This document shows positions 1 to 15,590 of a DNA stretch of 64,000 nucleotides, in pieces. The notes under the pieces are model-generated. The model made no database searches. It was given only the letters and a program-made list of their open reading frames with translations, and was not told the origin of the DNA. A program made the position numbers and the translations under genes. Positions within the stretch are counted from its first letter, which is position 1; every line of letters starts with the position of its first letter. Source of the DNA: Buxus sempervirens (Eukaryota > Streptophyta > Magnoliopsida > Buxales > Buxaceae); the NCBI GenBank assembly GCA_947561395.2, contig OX387190.1, forward strand, positions 40,536,392-40,600,391. Reading direction: 5' to 3'.

Positions 1-196
1 GGGCCTGGTTTGGGCCGGTCCGAAGTGGGCTCCACAGTTGGGCCCAGGGTGGTCTTGGTGGGCCCATCTGGGCCCATGGTCCAAAGATGGGCTTAAGATA
101 GCCCAAATTGTTTAAGAGACTGGTTCAAGTCGGTTCAGGTCGAATTAGGTTCAACCGGGCCAAATAAATTAGTTTTTAAGTTTACTTTATCGGATG

Positions 197-299
197 ACCG
201 TATTTGATGCACGGTCTGGTCAGAACCGTAAATTTAATACGTTTCAAGCCAGACCGTAGATCAACTACGGTCACGCCTAGACCGCTCTGAGTATACGGT
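197..299. repeat. Array of 19-nt palindromes with 28-bp phasing (cluster 1)
   Basis: Four dyads of the form ACCGTA-n7-TACGGT start at 197, 225, 253 and 281, exactly 28 bp apart, with 9-bp spacers. They are the same design as the array at 1121-1332 but with A/T instead of C/G at the outer arm base, and they are more diverged. The repeat at 253 has the cleanest arms. Confidence 0.8.
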
Positions 300-1096
300 T
301 TCTGGCCAATCTTGCTGTTTTGTGCCGATTTTGCTTGGGATCAACTTGGTTGGTCTTCTAAGAGCTCCGGCGCCGCCTGTGGTGGTTCTCAGCACTTTCA
401 TTTTACTGCATTTGCTCCATTTGCCTTCAAATCCTCCTTTTTTGTCTTCAATATCTTGCAAGGAAACAAAGTCTCCTTCTTCTTCATTTTGCTGGTTCCA
501 TCTTTTAGTTATTTTCAATGAAAAGGGAAGGAGGGATAAGGATTACAGGGGGTAAGTTTAAGAGGACACATCCCTCTTACATTGGTAAATGAAGTTCAAT
601 AAAACATGTTAGTGTCCATATCCTTTTTTCTTTGGCTTGTTCCACTTATCCATTATCTTTCTTTTTCATGAAGAGACTCTCGTTCACATAAGAGAATTCC
701 AGCAAAAGTGTAGCAAATGGGTTAGTAGCAAGGTAATGAAAATGAGAAAAATTGTTTAAATGAGACAATTCACGTTTATAAAAAAAAAAACTGTTAAAAG
801 CATTACCACACCGCTACTTCTTTGATTTGGTGATGTCTGGATTCTCCGAGAATTCCGGCAGCGCTTCCGCGTACTCCGGGATTCTTTAGAATGGTTTTGG
901 CAGAGGTTTGGCGGGTTCTTGATGTTCAAAGGATAAAAAAGAAGAGTTTAAATGGAATTTGGGCAGTATAAGGGTACTTTGGTCATTAGGATGGAGGCTG
1001 GCAGAGTGGAGGCAGGGCTTGGGCGTAAAAATGCCAAGGAAGGAGAGGGGGAGCAGCTAAGGGGGCTGGCTTGTTGAAATGAGGGGGGTGGCCTCT

Positions 1097-1106
1097 CTAT
1101 TTATAG
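1097..1106 (-). promoter_or_regulatory. TATA box of the LTR
   Basis: The minus strand reads CTATAAATAG followed by AGAGGCC, a strong plant TATA context. It lies just downstream (minus-strand direction) of the palindrome array at 1121-1332, so that array would sit in the proximal U3 promoter. Transcription would run toward position 1. Confidence 0.5.
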
Positions 1107-1120
1107 GCAAAATTTTCGTG

Positions 1121-1332
1121 CCCGTATTTGAAGTACGGGCGTGCCTTGCCCGTACTTCAAGTACGGGCGTGCCTTGCCCATAATTCAAATACGGGCGAAA
1201 AACGAATATTTGCAATTATCGCAGATTCGGCCGTACGGGACGCATGTCCCGCCGTACGGCGACGCGTGTCTTCTTCCAGAAGCTTGCCCGTATTTCAAAT
1301 ACGGGCATGCCCTGCCCGTAATTGAAATACGG
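1121..1332. repeat. Array of 19-nt palindromes with 28-bp phasing (cluster 2)
   Basis: Imperfect to perfect dyads of the form CCCGTA-n7-TACGGG start at 1121, 1149, 1177, 1287 and 1315. The steps are 28, 28, 110 and 28 bp. The copies at 1149 and 1287 have perfect 9-bp arms around one central base. The 9-bp spacers are also conserved (cgtgccttg twice, catgccctg once). Between 1196 and 1286 there is a related CCGTACGG/CGGGAC-GCAT-GTCCCG dyad cluster. Confidence 0.85.
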
Positions 1333-1915
1333 TCCAGCACGTTTTTAAAATGTTTGGATTTCAAACCTTTATTCAATTTGGTTTATTTAAAGATTTTTAT
1401 CCGATTTTTTTATTATTTTATTATAAAAACGAGATTCTTTTATTAAAATATTATAAAAAAATAAAGATATTTTTATTAAATGATTATTTTATTTATTTAA
1501 CTCATTTATTCTGCTTTTAGCTGCTGTTTTGCCACATGGGCAGTTTTCTTGAAACTTCAACTGCTCATAACTTTTCCGTCCGATGTCCGATTTCAGCAAA
1601 TTTGGTGTCGTTGGAATCAGCTCGGAACACACTATCCACTGGGATCAAATTAGGCAGTTGAATTGGGGTCGAGCAAAAAGTCAACTTTTGCTTCCCCAAA
1701 AGTTTGACCGGCTCATAACTTCCTCATTCGGACTCCGATTCTGGCAAACTTGGTTGCATTAGAACCGTGTCGAAATGCTCTTTTCAATGAGAGGAAGTTT
1801 GATGGCCAATTCTCTTTGGATCAAAAAGTCAAATTTTGGCCCCTTCAGGGTTTGACTTTTTAATTGAAATTTTCATTTTCTGCATTTTTTGGGGTGCAAA
1901 AATCAGGTGCTAACA

Positions 1916-2872: not shown

Positions 2873-3279
2873 TTGGGTAAATTACACTTACCTCCCTTGA
2901 GGTATAACATAATTACACTTATCTCCCTTGGGGTTTCTGATATAACACTGTCACCCCTTGACGTTTATGTGTGGGTCACACTAACACCCCCTCACTACAT
3001 TTTCCGTATTAAAAAAATAAATAACTTTTGAATGTATGACTAAAAATTAATTTTCTAAATTAATATTTAGTCATACATTCACAAGTTATTTATTTTTTAA
3101 AATTAATTTTTAGTCATACATTCAAAAGTTATTTATTTTTTAATACGGAAAATGTAGTGAGGGGGTGTTAGTGTGACCCACACATAAACGTCAAGGGGTG
3201 ACAGTGTTATATCAGAAACCCCAAGGGAGGTAAGTGTAATTATGTCATACCTCAAGGGAGGTAAATGTAATTTGCCCAA
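2873..3279. mobile_element. Foldback MITE-like element with long inverted arms
   Basis: The left arm from 2873 (TTGGGTAAATTACACTTACC) is matched by an almost perfect reverse complement ending at 3279. The arms extend about 170-180 bp and include the CTCCCTTGAGGTAT motif, the TGTGTGGGTCACACTAACAC motif and the CCGTATTAAAAAAATAAATA motif. The centre holds an extra inverted copy of the inner arm sequence (about 3055-3100). It is flanked by T-runs, so a target-site duplication cannot be read. Long terminal inverted repeats without coding sequence fit a Mutator-like or foldback MITE. A degraded relative lies at 62205-62330. Confidence 0.8.
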
Positions 3280-4339: not shown

Positions 4340-6371
4340 CCAATTACCATTTTGAAAATTATATACAATCAGTAAAATAAGAAGATTACGTAAATTCACG
4401 GCGGAACTTTCAACGTGTCAAATTCTAGTTTGGCCCTTTTATTATATGTCTCTTGGTACTTTTTAAACCGTTGATGTCGCTTACTCTCAAAATCACTGTT
4501 GAATGGGTTAACTTTGAATCACCGATAACGTAAATTAATCCACGGTGAGAAATTACTAAATGTATCTTAGTTCCATAGCTGGCACATACCAAATCGGACA
4601 TCTTTCTTCCGGTATTAATCCATTAGGGTAATACATGCCCCACCGGCGTAGAAATGCTCATAAATATTTTTTATGAGCATTTCTTTTAGGGCCAAAGTCC
4701 AGTTCAATGAAACCACCGGCTGGATGTATTTTGGGGTGCAGGCCTCTGTTCAAAAGGGACATCTATCAGCACGTTTCGCGCTGGTATTACTGATTGGCAC
4801 CAGATAAAATGGTGGGTCTACTTATAAAAATATCTGATCGTGTGGTTTGATTTGATAAGTAATGTTTGTATGGCATAACAAATTTAAAAAATAAAAAAAA
4901 AATGAAGGGATAATTTCAGCCAGAATCATAACAATTCCTTTGAATATTAGTACAGAATGATTATAGGATGGGACCTCTGCCTCCCGTTTCAAACCTCCAC
5001 GATCTCCACTTCAAGAAACGGTAACGCTTGATCTGGGATTCCAGAGAGGCCTTGGATGGGCTATGGAAGAAGACGCGGAGCCTCCTCTTTCTTGGAGCCT
5101 CCTCTGCCTTATCCCGTGCTTCTAATCCTCGCACTTGTGTCGGTATTTCTGGGCCTCTCATGGTACTGCTCCTTCGAGTCTGTGATGGAGGACGCGGTGG
5201 AGCAGAGGGGTTGGGCACTTATGGCCGCACCTATAATTCTACTCATCCTGGTGCAATGGTTATCTTCCATGGAGAACCGAGGGGACCACTTTTGCTTATC
5301 TCCATATGATCGATGCAGGAGGTCTCATCGGCCTCCTTCCGGCTGTGCCTCGCCCTGGGGCGTAGCTGCGCTCATCATCTTGTCACTGATCTTGCTCCAA
5401 TACCGATCTACCTTTTCGTGATAGCTGGTCTGTTAAGTTTAAGGATCTCTGTTCAGTTGGTCTTCTTGTTTCGTAGTCGTACACTAATCTATCTGTGTTG
5501 GTAAAGGTGACTGTATATTATACGTTTGTGTGTTGTTAAATTAATTTTGTTGCAAGTGATTCGTAATTAATTAGAGAAACTGGATCTGTGTATATCGCCT
5601 GTATGGGTAAATGATTTTTAGTGCACTTGAAAAGATTAGATGGATCTGGATTCTTGCTTTGTAATCTTGTCTTTGTATGAATTGGAAGTGACTCAGTTCT
5701 TCTTCTTCTTCTTTTTTTTCTAAATTAATTGAATTATTTGGCTTGTTAATTTTGGTTAATTCGCTAAAATTTGCCTCAACCTTTTTTTTTCTTCTCTTGG
5801 AACTCGGGGTATTACCAACTAATCCTGGGGCTTGTGCAGTCCCCCATCCCATGCAAATTCCATAATTACTAGGCCAAAGGCCTTGGGGTCCCCCAAGGAA
5901 TTGAACCTAAGAGAATTTGAAACTGAGACCTTAGAGAGAACATACCTTAAGGCCTCAACTTGGCTTCAACTTTGATGGCGTTTGAGTGCAAAGTTCAGCT
6001 AACCCTACCGACTTGAAAGATAGGTTATTGAAGTGGAACCGAGTTTACTCAACCTGAATATTGCTTAGCTAGAATTATGAGTTTGCATCACATCATGGAG
6101 AAATGGTCTGTTTCATAAGATGACTTTGCTTTAAACGTACTTTCAATATTTAAACTTTAAAGAACTATGAAAGAGCTTTAGAAATTCAAATCGTCTTTTG
6201 GTTTACAACGGCTTTTTAATTTAACTTTGGACACCCAAATGGGCATTCCAATTTCAGCATACACATTTGATCTCAGGTTAGTGCTTATGGCATTAGGGCT
6301 TAAAGTATTAATGAGAGCTGGTGGCCGGTGATGCATAGATTTAAAACCTGTTTTATTACGGGAGTCGTGGA
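4340..6371 (+). repeat. Segmental duplication, copy A (2.0 kb)
   Basis: The sequence from CCAATTACCATT near 4340 to TTACGGGAGTCGTGG near 6371 aligns by eye with 8894-10903, with small indels. The copies share the membrane-protein gene, its upstream region, and a long 3' flank that includes a stretch (about 5800-6010) looking like an older dispersed repeat. The copies are in the same orientation, 4.5 kb apart. Confidence 0.85.
5056..5421 (+). pseudogene. Small three-helix membrane protein, copy A (C-terminally truncated)
   Basis: Single-exon frame of 121 aa starting MGYGRRRG. Hydrophobic segments lie near residues 17-36, 51-68 and 99-116, with a Ser/Arg/Pro-rich loop before a conserved SSPWGVA-like motif (here ASPWGVA). 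I cannot assign a function; it looks like a plant-specific small membrane protein. Against copy B (9555-9947) it lacks 12 nt in the N-terminal part (GFTLN reduced) and has one extra T near the end (ACCTTTTCGTGA versus ACCTTTCGTGAT), which shifts the frame and removes the RDSWYV tail that B keeps and the third copy partly shares (SFHSKW). It may still be expressed as a shortened protein, so pseudogene is a judgement. Confidence 0.6.
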
Positions 6372-8893: not shown

Positions 8894-10903
8894 CCAATTA
8901 CCATTGTGATAAATTATATACAATCAGTAAAATAAGAAGATTACTTAAATCCACGGTGGAACTTTCAACTTGTCAAATTCTAGTTTGGCCCTTTTATTCC
9001 GTTGATGTCGCTTAGTCTCAAAATCACTGTTGAATGGGTTAGTTCCATAGCTGGCACATACCAAATCGGACATCTTTCTTCCGGTATTAATCTATTAGGG
9101 TACCACATGCCCTACCCATGTAACAAAATTCTAATTTGCAAATATTTTTTTATCAGCATTCTTTCTAGAACCAAAATCCAGTAGTTTCAATGAAACTACC
9201 GGTTGGGATGTATTTCGGGGTGTAAGCCCCTGTTCAAAAAGGGCATCCATTCATACGTTTCGTGCTGGTGGTACCAGATGAAATGGTCTCATATTTTTAT
9301 GGGTCTACTTAAAAATTATTTTGTCGTGTGCTTTGATTTGGTTAGTTATATTTATACGGCATAACAAATTTATAAAATAGAAAAAAAAAATAGAGGAAGA
9401 ATTTTGACATAAATCATCAGCCCAGAAGGATCCTTTGAATATTATTAGAAATAGATAGATTATATGATGGGACCTCTGCCTCCCATTTCAAACGTCCACG
9501 GTCTCCGCTTCAAGAAACAGTAACGCTTGATCTGGGATTCCGGAGAGGCCTTGGATGGGCTACGGAAGAAGACGCGGAGTCTCCTCCTTCTTGGAGGGGT
9601 TCACGCTGAACCCTCTGCCTTATCCCGTGCTTCTAATCCTCGCGCTCGTGTCGGTATTTCTGGGCCTCTCATGGTACTGCTCCTTCGAGTCTATGCTGGA
9701 GGACGTGGAGGAGCAGATGGGTTGGGCACTTATGGCCGCACCTATAATTATACTCATCCTGGTGCAATGGTTATCTTCCATGGAGAACCGAGGGGACCTC
9801 TTTGGCTTATCTCCATATGATCGACGCAGGAGGTCTCATCGGCCTCCTTCCGGGGGTTCCTCGCCCTGGGGCGTAGCTGCGCTCATCATCTTGTCACTGA
9901 TCTTGCTCCAATACCAATCTACCTTTCGTGATAGCTGGTATGTTTAAGGATCTCTGTTCAGTTGGTCTTCGTGTTTCGTAGTCGTACACTGATCTATCTG
10001 TAAAGGTGACTGTATATTATATGTTTCTGTGTGTTGTTAAATTAATTTTGCTGCAAGTGATTCGTAATTAATTAGAGAAACTGGATCTGTGTATATCGCA
10101 TGTATGGGTAAATGATTTGTAGCGTACTTGAAAAGACAGATGGATCTGGGATTCGTGTTCCTAATCTTCGTTTGAATTGGAAGTGACTTAGTTCTTTTTC
10201 TTTTTTTTTCTAAAATTAATTAATTAAATCTAAGAAATTGAGGTATAGATGGATTATTTGGCTAGTTAATTTTCGTTTATTGGCTAAAATTTGCTTAAAC
10301 CCTTTTTTTTCTCTAGAACTTGGGGTATCGGGCCGACGAGCTTATGTGCACCAACTAATCCCTAAGGCTTGTGCAGTCCCCCATCCCACACAAATTGGGT
10401 AATTACAAGACCAAAGGATCTGGGGTGACCCCAAGGAATTGAACCTAAGAGAGTTCAAATTTGAGATTGGGAGCATACCTTCAGTCCTCAAGTTTGATGG
10501 CGTTTGAGTGCAAAGTTCAGCTAACCCAACCAACTTGGAAGAGAGGCAATTGATGAAGTGGAACCCACTTTACTCAACTGGAATATCGCTTAGATAGAAT
10601 TATGAGTTTGCAAACTTTGCATCATAGGCATCCTAGAGAAACTGTTTGTTTCATAAGATGGCTTTGCTTTAAACGTACTTTCGACGTTTAAAGTAAGAAC
10701 TTCGAAAGAGCTTAAGAAATTCAAATCGTCTTTTGGTTTACTACGGCTTTTAATTTAACTTTGGCACCCAAATGTGCATTCCAATTTCAGCACACACATT
10801 TGATCTCAGCTTAGTGCTTATGGCATTAGGGGTTAAAGTATTAATGAGAGCTGGTGGCCGGTGATGCATAGATTTAAAACCTGTTTTATTACGGGAGTCG
10901 TGG
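8894..10903 (+). repeat. Segmental duplication, copy B (2.0 kb)
   Basis: Direct copy of 4340-6371. It differs by small indels, for example a shorter flank around 9000-9050 and a slightly different 3' flank. Its right edge (TTACGGGAGTCGTGG) meets the unusual low-complexity insert at 10925-11284. Confidence 0.85.
9555..9947 (+). CDS. Small three-helix membrane protein, copy B (apparently intact)
   Basis: Single exon, 130 aa, function unknown. The N-terminus MGYGRRRG is basic. Hydrophobic segments lie near residues 21-40 (starting LPYPVLLILALV), 55-72 and 104-120. An Arg/Ser/Pro loop (about 86-101, YDRRRRSHRPPS) precedes the SSPWGVA motif at 102-108, which the diverged copy at 14104-14514 also has. 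The C-terminus ends QSTFRDSWYV. The start chosen is the ATG shared with copy A; an upstream in-frame alternative is not supported. Nothing in the neighbourhood indicates its role. Copy A has a short deletion and a frameshift relative to this one. Confidence 0.7.
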   Translation: MGYGRRRGVSSFLEGFTLNPLPYPVLLILALVSVFLGLSWYCSFESMLEDVEEQMGWALMAAPIIILILVQWLSSMENRGDLFGLSPYDRRRRSHRPPSGGSSPWGVAALIILSLILLQYQSTFRDSWYV

Positions 10904-11944: not shown

Positions 11945-12917
11945 TCATTTTTATAAGAAAGCAAAACTTAACTTTAAAATTTGATACTTGTAACGTTTAT
12001 CTTCCTTCTAGGATCTAACAATGAGGGTTATTAAGTGAATATGTTGAATTTATTTAAACTATTTTGTCCTTGTAAAGTTAATATTTTAAGTAAATAATAC
12101 TTAATCCTTATTAAAAATCTTCTAATAAAAAATGACATTTAACAAGATAAATTAATTTATGAATTTAAAACCTTTAATTATCACTTATTATCACTTATAG
12201 AAGGGTAATAAATATTAAAGAGGTGTACACGTCTGTGAATGACGTTGATGTGCATATTCTATACCCCACTCACCATTAATAGACCAGCCTACCCATTAAT
12301 AGACCAGCGTAGGCTGCAGCTGAAATGAGTTTTAAATTATTTTTTGTGGTGGATCAACTCAATGCATGATCAAGCATGTCTCGTATGCAATGACAGTTAT
12401 TTGAAATCCCTAATGAACCATGTCTAATAAAAGCAAGGATTCTAATTTCTAAGTTTTAAGTCGTGTCCCTTGTTTACATTATTTTTCTGTTTTATTTTTG
12501 CTATTCATTTTTATAACAAAGCTAAACTTACCTTCAAAATTTGATGCTTGTAATGTTTATCTCCCATTTTGGATCTAACAATTAGGGGTATTAAGTGAAT
12601 ATGTTGAATTTATTTAAATTATTTTATCCTTGTAAAGTTATATGAATTTAAAATTTTTAAATATCACTTATAGAAGGTTAATAAATATTAAAGAAGTGTA
12701 CACATCAGTGAATGACGCTGATGTGTATACCCCACTCACCATTAAACCAGTGGATTTTCTAACCTCTGCTCCAGCTGATATGAGTTTTAAATTATTTTTG
12801 TGGTGGATCAACTCAATGCGTGATCAACCATGTCACTTATGCAATGACAGTGATTCGGAATTCCTAATGAACCATGTCTGATAAAAGCAAGGATTCTAAT
12901 TTCTAAGTTTTGAATAC
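11945..12917 (+). repeat. Diverged tandem duplication, about 0.5-kb units
   Basis: Unit 1 (about 11945-12460) and unit 2 (about 12500-12917) share, in the same order, AAAATTTGATACTTGTAACG, the TTAAGTGAATATGTTGAATT block, a GTGTACAC...GTGAATGACG block, and a closing AATGAACCATGTCT-ATAAAAGCAAGG block. A separate fragment of the leading sequence is at 11714. Unit 1 also has a small internal duplication, CCCATTAATAGACCAGC, near 12290-12310. Confidence 0.75.
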
Positions 12918-14103: not shown

Positions 14104-14514
14104 CTAACGTGAGCTCCAAAGAGGACGAAACCACTTTGAGTGGAAGGACGACTGGTACGAGATGAGGAATAGGAGCACCAGTACCAACAAAGCGACACCC
14201 CAGGGCGAGCTCCCCGCGCGATGAATCGAGCCATGTTCTGCACGTGAAGCCCTAACCACGAATCCTCCACTGATAGAGATGGAAAGTATGATGACGATCA
14301 AAAGCATGGGCAACAAGAAGAGGAATAGCTGGAAGCTGACCATGTGGCTGCGCATGCTAGACTTGTATTCTATGTAGTGGGAGAGGAACAGGAAGAGGAC
14401 GACGATGGCGAAGATGGTGAGCAACGGGAGTGGGGGTGCAGAGATGGAGGCCAGAGTCCGGCTCGTCCATCCTTGTTTCCATGCAGGGCCCCTCTCTCTA
14501 TACAACCAAGGCAT
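14104..14514 (-). CDS. Small three-helix membrane protein, diverged inverted paralogue
   Basis: Single exon, 136 aa, function unknown. Hydrophobic segments lie near residues 30-48, 61-83 and 104-120. The order is the same as in the copies at 5056 and 9555, and the same C-terminal block is present: SSPWGVALLVLVLLFLISYQ, then SSFHSKW. The rest has diverged, so this paralogue is much older than the A/B duplication and is in the opposite orientation. The start is the only upstream ATG that includes the first hydrophobic segment. The frame is open and uninterrupted, which suggests constraint. Confidence 0.65.
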   Translation of the reverse strand: MPWLYRERGPAWKQGWTSRTLASISAPPLPLLTIFAIVVLFLFLSHYIEYKSSMRSHMVSFQLFLFLLPMLLIVIILSISISGGFVVRASRAEHGSIHRAGSSPWGVALLVLVLLFLISYQSSFHSKWFRPLWSSR

Positions 14515-15092
14515 CTCGATTGCTTGTCTCTCCCACAGCGACCTCGCTCAATTAAGGAAGCTTTTTTTTTTTTTTTTTGGTAGTCCTCAATTAAGGAAGC
14601 TTTGTTTGATCGATGTAAGAATTGTATATAAAAGAAGTATAAAGAGAGTGGTTTGGCTTTAGCATAAATGCCTGGGCATGGATTCTTTATCTCTGGCCGA
14701 CTTTATCTTTTGTAATCATGCCCACTCAACCAAATGATTCCCGCACAAGTATTGAAGAGAAAATTAAGAAGAGAAACGAATATATTTATTATATTCTAAC
14801 AGAACACGGGTCACCAAGTAAAGCTTCAGCCGCAAGAGCTATCAATCGGTTCGGACCACTCCGTTGAACATACAGGGATTAATTTTACATCTTTGATCTT
14901 CCATTTGAAGCTTTAACCAGGTCGCATGAGCAGATTATTACCTCGCTTCTCAAAAATGTTTGTGAGACAGTGAGAGCCTTTTTAAGGAATTTTTCTCTTC
15001 TTTTGTTAGTTGGAAAATCAGTATCTAAACCGTAATGAACGTTTTGGCGGTTGCACCACTCAACCCATGGTCGAGTCATTTAAGGGTACCGT
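14515..15092. other. Intergenic, no gene supported
   Basis: T-run at 14563-14579 with the flanking sequence TCAATTAAGGAAGCTTT duplicated on both sides (14549 and 14586). No coding frame supported. Confidence 0.4.
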
Positions 15093-15590
15093 ATGGATGA
15101 TATATCCTCGACTCCGAAAATTAAGGTTGTCGTGGTTTTTGCGGTGGCAGCTGAGAAAGAGATTGACGCTTGGCGATCCCGTCTGTCAGCGCTACTTGTT
15201 TCAAATTTTGCGTGTCACGATGGAGCTGGTTGGTGTCTTAGCGAGGGTGAGAGGCGCTGCAAGTAAACCATCCAGCTGGTAGAACGCTGCGGAAGCCGAT
15301 CGAATTCAACTGCGTGATCGATGTTCCAATCAAAGATAATCAATTGCTCTGTTATTGGCACGTTCGAAGAAGACGATGGAAGCCGAAAGCGTGTAAAGAC
15401 GGTCGAAGATTTAAGCTCATCAGGCGCCATGAAGGCTCTGAGAAAGAGTAGGAATTGAAAGTTGAAACACAGTGGGGGAGCAGCTTGATCCAGTTGTTGA
15501 GAAACTGTCTCCTCTCTGTTAACGTCTCCGTCTCTGCTTCCTACGGATTCGGTATTAGCTGTTTCCGCGTACACGTAGTTTGCCAGTTGG
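15093..15590 (+). pseudogene. Unrecognised gene relic, frameshifted
   Basis: An ATG at 15093 opens a protein-like frame (DDISSTPKIKVVVFAVAAEK) that stops near 15264. A second frame from about 15290 reads LRKPIEFNCVIDVPIKDNQL and, after one in-frame stop, LIQLLRNCLLSVNVSVSASY then GFGISCFRVHVVCQLA up to about 15590. Codon-like composition across two frames with a stop and a shift suggests a decayed coding sequence without introns, possibly a retrocopy. I do not recognise the family. The minus-strand frame 15215-15574 is probably its shadow. Confidence 0.4.

Follow-up and report, generated by a model that had tools for sequence, protein, structure and literature searches.

The palindromic array and its host LTR

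The stretch of DNA analysed here (the window; 64,000 nucleotides of Buxus sempervirens, C12:40536392-40600391, from a genome of 676.5 Mb) begins inside a solo LTR of a family referred to as family A. The 5' end of this LTR lies at window position 1915 (TGTTAGCACC), and its 3' end (GGTGCGCACA) lies 567 bp beyond the left window edge. Both ends and the 5-bp TSD CACTC on both sides were read from the sequence, and the extent of the LTR was obtained by comparing the conserved stretch with other loci. The features of the LTR are given in Table 1.

Table 1. Features of the family A solo LTR at the left end of the window.
Feature	Position in window	Strand	Remarks
Solo LTR, family A, 2,482 bp, TGTTAGCACC...GGTGCGCACA	1..1915 in window	-	C12:40535825-40538306
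U3 array, five CCCGTA-N7-TACGGG dyads (two with one mismatch)	1121..1333	-	
Compact CCGTACGG palindromes, two, inside the 110-bp gap	1230..1260	.	
TATA box CTATAAATAG	1097..1106	-	809 bp from LTR start
Second 28-bp-phased array, same LTR	198..298	-	four dyads, CCGTA starts 198, 226, 254, 282; 0-2 mismatches

The original prediction for this DNA, namely five palindromic dyads in 28-bp phase with one 110-bp gap, ending about 15 bp before a TATA box, describes a real array in the U3 of the LTR. The dyads are present on the minus strand at 1121-1139, 1149-1167, 1177-1195, 1287-1305, and 1315-1333, with measured steps of 28, 28, 110, and 28 bp, and the minus-strand distance to the TATA box is 14 bp. 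Three of the five are exact, while the third (1177-1195) has the left arm CCCATA and the fifth (1315-1333) the end TACGGT, one mismatch each. One of the two compact palindromes of the 110-bp gap is missing in some copies of the LTR, together with a 10-bp deletion. Chance, part of the alternative named at the outset, is excluded by the four exact occurrences of CCGTA-N7-TACGG at 901-1420 of the window against 0 in 2,000 dinucleotide shuffles. The arrays are not confined to U3, as had been proposed for checking: a second array lies about 800 bp downstream of the TATA box in the same LTR and recurs across family A copies, and family B carries arrays in its leader.

Further along the window, positions 2873-3279 show near-perfect self-complementarity (92.7% over 410 columns), as of a fold-back or MITE-like element. 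Positions 4567-5495 and 9039-10000 form a direct duplication with 85% identity; both copies contain an ORF encoding a small hydrophobic protein, and a third ORF of similar appearance lies at 14104-14547 on the minus strand.

Copies of family A

Homologues of the family A LTR were found in ten dyad loci (L007, L008, L010, L012 (twice), L014, L015, L016, L020, L023, and L024), and the set was enlarged by 20 copies from the 40 scored matches of a DNA search. Across the aligned copies the TATA box reads TATAAATAG in all 32 and CTATAAATAG in 31 of 32. The PBS TGGCGACTCTGCTGGGRAC, also given as TGGCGACTCTGCTGGG, follows the LTR in both families A and B; it stands 2-3 bp after the LTR in L013, L017, and L023 and occurs with one mismatch in L022. 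Genome-wide, the exact PBS occurs 2,479 times, against 0 for the reversed control. The TG..CA ends, the TSD CACTC, and the PBS beside the LTR are as expected of Ty3/gypsy elements on the LTR side.

None of the scanned ORFs of A elements carried a gag or pol domain. One of them (L007:7210-7938) matched DUF7745 with 37.6 bits over a cut-off of 26 and scored 34.5 for PMD, just below the cut-off of 34.9. PMD ORFs, most of them free of stops and about 575 and 590 aa long, are paired about 3.4 kb apart genome-wide, with at least 12 pairs counted by eye (for example C4:42315242 with C4:42318696, C8:6756466 with C8:6759891, and C12:20508698 with C12:20512122). These pairs look like a young TE family with two PMD genes. 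Within the covered part of C1, three of three high-scoring PMD hits were separated from exact PBS sites by more than 60 kb.

Abundance, spacer length and pitch

CCCGTA-N7-TACGGG occurs at 12,309 places in the genome, against 24 for the reversed pattern. With spacers of 0-30 pooled, 12,806 matches stand against 1,703 of the reversed control, 96% of the matches having the N7 spacer; the N6 version occurs 12 times (reversed control 8). In the A and B arrays examined, the core between exact pentamers with a gap of 3-12 was exactly 7 in 187 of 187 pairs and, with one mismatch per half-site permitted, in 273 of 285. Between exact pentamers the linker measures 10 or 11, except for a 13-bp gap that stems from the compact palindromes of the A U3. 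The core is thus fixed at 7 while the linker varies, and the dyad is therefore the rigid unit.

Phased triples (CCGTA-N7-TACGG-N{9,13}-CCGTA) were counted 12,130 times in forward and 12,103 times in reverse orientation, against 2 and 7, and among the matches listed the linker was 11 save for five with 10. Start-to-start steps in the A U3 were 28 (87 times), 27 (once), and larger in 32 cases, which correspond to the central gap or to lost units. The second array of A had steps of 28, 27, and 29 bp in 68, 18, and 1 cases, respectively, and the B U3 steps of 28 and 27 bp in 21 and 4. All 12 steps between CCGTA dyads in the three B leaders read were 28 bp.

Family B and the lineage of the elements

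Inspected by homology, all 38 dyad places examined (from the first 50 distinct places listed) lay in elements of family A or B. The LTR of family B measures 1.8 kb (L013:4503-6316), with the TATA box at L013:4915 and four U3 dyads at about 105-205 bp from the LTR start. Its second array, five dyads in exact 28-bp steps, occupies part of the untranslated leader that separates the PBS from gag (L013:7545-7673). At L019:4426-4460 an A-like LTR seems to be inserted beside a B-family dyad, a possible hint of insertion near palindromes.

Retrotrans_gag (PF03732) was identified in ORFs of L015, L018, L022, and L023 and RVT_1 (PF00078) in L023:3242-4258, these domains belonging to B-type or host-element coding sequence. 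The lineage is therefore Ty3/gypsy. The RT motif of the elements presumably resembles that of Tat/Ogre, and membership of this clade is likely, judging from the large size and the PMD-like ORF in one A element. The available text on Ogre elements (PMC6317226, 2019, in part) matches in the Ty3/gypsy coding domains, in large size, and in so far as one A element has a PMD-like ORF, PMD being given as present in 57% of Ogre elements; it defines the Tat/Ogre clade by an additional archaeal-type RNase H (aRH), whereas the likeness here is in other features. The whole word "palindrom" occurs 0 times in the main text of that paper, in which the form "palindromic" may still occur.

Families C and D and the shared skeleton

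A sample that is independent of the dyads was provided by the 17 exact PBS sites in C1:0-8.139 Mb, so that the family counts refer to part of one chromosome of one genome. Arrays were carried by 16 of the 17 elements: six CCGTA, nine of family C, and one of family D. In the six CCGTA cases, exact triples of this motif lie within the element's own LTR. Among ten elements without an exact CCGTA triple, a CCGTA array was found in none; eight of them belong to family C, one (L055) to family D, and one (L053) is without an array. The PBS site at 3411503 has exact C dyads 2.1 kb upstream and was hence counted as C. Eight further short U3 pieces comprised six of C, one of A, and one that fell outside the U3.

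The sister family C, with a different motif and a 39-bp period at the same two places, is the main new result of this study. Its LTR starts with TGTAGACACCCCAAATTGCAC in copies whose start is intact and covered; the 3' end of the LTR is near-identical, the PBS is unchanged, and a TATA box is present. Four dyads of the type GTATCCGG-N9-CCGGATAC at 39 bp precede this box. All 14 C U3s had four dyads (at up to 5 mismatches), with 39-bp steps in 41 of 42 cases and one step of 38. The two C leaders read have four dyads each, again of the C motif in 39-bp steps, and no CCGTA dyads. B and C agree at 75% over 602 aligned columns of the leader just upstream of the arrays (L066 against L013), and in the LTR they align over 34 bp at the start, at 68% over 332 columns in the TATA-box region, and at 69% over 574 columns at the 3' end. 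The sequence around the arrays is homologous, and therefore different codes occupy the same two places.

Genome-wide, GTATCCGG-N{0,30}-CCGGATAC gave 20,703 matches against 2. Among the matches listed (50 distinct places) the spacer was 9 in 48 and 22 in two, the latter overlapping neighbouring dyads. All five C elements that could be followed have a third array, which follows the 5' U3 array by 14.9-15.7 kb and precedes the 3' one by 4.7-5.7 kb, and about 20 kb separate the array of one LTR from that of the other. Both arms are changed together in some C dyads, giving TATCCGA..TCGGATA in L054 and L009 and TAACCGG..CCGGTTA in both C leaders.

Some further observations concern family C. Several dyads at L009:2966-3083 and L054:106-245 share the symmetric change TATCCGA..TCGGATA, as if the half-site evolved in concert. 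Two C dyads 39 bp apart are located internally, just before a C 3' LTR (L012:927-990; C1:4535926-4535989), where an antisense accessory gene could have its promoter; the ORFs in L012:1-1000 were uninformative by eye. Seven exact PBS at steps of about 15.32 kb (15318-15327) in C1:8477724-8569659 form tandem LTR-element units, and the U3 sampled from them (L061) is of family C.

The D array (L055) consists of unevenly phased dyads of the type AACCGC-N9-GCGGTT. Written out, CCGTA-N7-TACGG, CCGG-N9-CCGG, and CCGC-N9-GCGG all equal CCG-N11-CGG, the form shared by families A-D. When gaps k of 0-30 in CCG-Nk-CGG were compared, k = 11 was the top gap in each of the A-D array sets tested, with counts of 13 in B U3, 10 in B leader, 14 in C U3, 8 in C leader, and 5 in D U3, and of 4 and 3 in the U3 and second arrays of the window. 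In 82.1 kb of background, k = 11 occurred 0 times and the other gaps 0-5 times. Inverted CCG triplets that keep a distance of 14 bp while their neighbours change look like the mark of one type of dimeric DNA-binding domain whose specificity has diversified.

Conservation of the half-sites

Half-sites are conserved and cores are free, as expected of protein sites. Identities of pentamer, core, linker, and flank were 0.879, 0.715, 0.607, and 0.628 in the second array of A (n = 26) and 0.921, 0.571, 0.555, and 0.592 in the B U3 (n = 8), respectively. The corresponding values were 0.963, 0.834, 0.872, and 0.900 in the A U3 (n = 32), and half-sites, cores, linkers, and flanks of C (n = 15) reached 0.963, 0.710, 0.755, and 0.891; in these two U3s the flanks are well conserved too, so that half-sites stand out little from flanks and clearly only from cores and linkers. 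With only three B leaders, the identities were 92% for pentamers, 72% for cores, 86% for linkers, and 76% for flanks, and the linkers (0.857) were about as conserved as the outer bases (0.867).

These values bear on the idea that the arrays have no function, their 28- and 39-bp units having been multiplied by slippage and carried along on amplifying elements. Slippage does occur, as exact deletions of 28-bp units in L016 and L012b indicate, and the copies within a family share descent. Against this stand the CpG-containing half-sites, which are 88-96% identical where cores and linkers reach 56-87% (A second array, B U3, A U3, and C U3), the presence of the same motif in two separated arrays of each family, and the CCG-N11-CGG common to four families with differing dyads. 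Arrays free of function are thus highly improbable.

Over 196 unique dyads the half-site has the consensus R-M-C-C-G-T-A. Directly before CCGTA stands A in 96, C in 94, T in 6, and G in 0, so that 190 of 196 have A or C there. Core positions 1, 4, and 7 hold next to no information. This letter pattern, together with the near-empty core positions, speaks for letters being read in double-stranded DNA rather than for pairing. Among arm changes, A-to-G at position five of the half-site is the most frequent, with 23 cases in 5' arms and 31 in 3' arms.

Arm covariation had been proposed as a check, and here the outcome was divided: the outer arm bases do covary, but weakly, as the half-sites vary largely independently. 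The odds ratio is 2.7 without the A U3 (49, 27 and 18, 27 in the two rows of the table) and 4.8 with it, uncorrected for relatedness. Such covariation would suit arrays that act as RNA, forming hairpins in the genomic RNA (U3 at its 3' end, the second array in the leader) for packaging, stability, or silencing small RNAs. Strong predicted folds (z of -10.2 for U3 and -6.7 for the second array), symmetric double changes in some C dyads, and an excess of C-to-T in the 5' arm (18) over G-to-A in the 3' arm (6), the direction expected of wobble, point the same way, and both array places should be transcribed to judge from the TATA box. Small RNAs are in excess over palindrome clusters of maize Sirevirus elements (Bousios et al. 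2016, as cited in the excerpted PMC10760457). Across all arm transitions, however, wobble-compatible changes (59) show no clear preference over incompatible ones (50), and T-to-C at the first 3'-arm base (31) exceeds A-to-G at its partner (23), which is the opposite direction. It is the letters that are conserved rather than the pairing, as the lack of G before CCGTA illustrates, and the outer pair is mismatched in 45 of the 121 dyads outside the A U3 that have A/C and T/G there. Strict phase between separate hairpins would also be left unexplained. Given the lack of a clear net wobble preference, a role as RNA is rated as unlikely.

For binding to double-stranded DNA, LBD and SPL factors might be considered as leads. 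A known host factor of another kind, a NAC dimer of the JUB1/ATAF1 type that would make the LTR a stress-responsive promoter, is very unlikely. Some NAC sites are bipartite with half-sites CGT[AG]..[CT]ACG, the JUB1 site being TGCCGT-7n-ACG (PMC4844398, Table 1, in excerpt), and the commonest arm change would be tolerable for a reader of CGT[AG]. By our count, however, CGTN and NACG are 5-6 nt apart in the ATAF1, ORS1, and JUB1 sites excerpted from that paper, compared with an almost invariant 7 here, and the family C half-sites GTATCCGG are not NAC-like. PMD proteins were likewise rejected as the binder: the Arabidopsis "DOWN" motif CATGCAGTTT of the MORC1 promoter, as given in the available portions of PMC9899485 and PMC7156037, is unlike the half-sites here, and the three PMD hits compared on C1 lie far from exact PBS sites.

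Relation to known systems

To our knowledge, descriptions of palindrome clusters in plant LTRs date back to 2010, and we know of no identified binder. No published account of the present arrays was found in the literature searched, which was available in part and covers few subscription papers. The closest published case consists of the palindromic repeated motifs (RM) in the LTRs of Sirevirus elements of the Ty1/copia superfamily (Bousios et al. 2010, PMC2829016, in excerpt). There, likewise, several palindromes, nearly all CGG-CCG, are clustered shortly upstream of the LTR TATA box, many elements have a further cluster upstream of ENV, the motif is element-specific, and the Citrus RM AATCCGGCTWRCCGGATT has the half-site ATCCGG, as in family C. 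By our count the gap in the excerpted motifs is N6 in the Citrus RM and N7 in OPIE-2, whereas the dyads here are longer, with CCG-N11-CGG. Unlike what that excerpt describes, the present arrays keep a strict 28- or 39-bp pitch and have a second array downstream in the LTR or the leader. An identity with Sirevirus elements was rejected: CGG-CCG palindromes upstream of the TATA box were found, but in place of a Ty1/copia polyprotein the B-type coding sequence has gypsy-type gag (PF03732) and RT (RVT_1).

A second point of comparison is offered by the VANC target motifs of the Arabidopsis VANDAL DNA transposons, short motifs that form dense arrays in non-coding parts (PMC5735166, 2017, in part). 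These motifs also differ between related families, and they are read by an element-encoded anti-silencing protein, for which co-evolution has been proposed. As described in the same excerpted paper, VANC21 motifs are arrayed in a single orientation and not as dyads, and they belong to a DNA transposon, whereas the present elements are LTR retrotransposons.

Proposed function and significance

The dyads are probably double-stranded DNA sites for a dimeric, sequence-specific factor, the arrays serving cooperative cis-regulation with a specificity that differs by family. The putative site would consist of two CCG triplets in inverted orientation with exactly 11 bp between them (CCG-N11-CGG), the neighbouring bases being set by the family, namely RMCCGTA in A and B, GTATCCGG in C, and AACCG in D. 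Four or five such dyads at a nearly fixed pitch (28, sometimes 27 bp, in A and B; 39 bp in C) would make up a cooperative cis-regulatory array. The two array places, upstream of the LTR TATA box and downstream either within the LTR, as in A, or in the leader ahead of gag, as in B and C, suggest that the factor probably controls element transcription, either as an activator or as an anti-silencer. Both arrays switch motif and pitch together between the sister families, which suggests that each family probably has its own version of the factor. Such a family-specific factor may be host- or element-encoded.

More tentatively, and with less likelihood than not, the elements may encode or partner with a family-specific regulator that recognises CCG-N11-CGG and co-evolves with the dyads. 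The arrays in promoter and leader and, in C, some 5 kb ahead of the array in the 3' LTR might then form an autoregulatory or anti-silencing circuit, a counterpart of VANC in which motif and pitch would separate sister families.

One genome thus holds about 33,000 matches to two alternative codes with a shared CCG-N11-CGG skeleton. The N6 and N8 spacers and the motif of the sister family are built-in controls, which makes the binder findable. Factor-site co-evolution of retrotransposons thereby becomes testable, and if the factor is element-encoded, sequence-specific anti-silencing or autoregulation would extend from DNA transposons to LTR retrotransposons.
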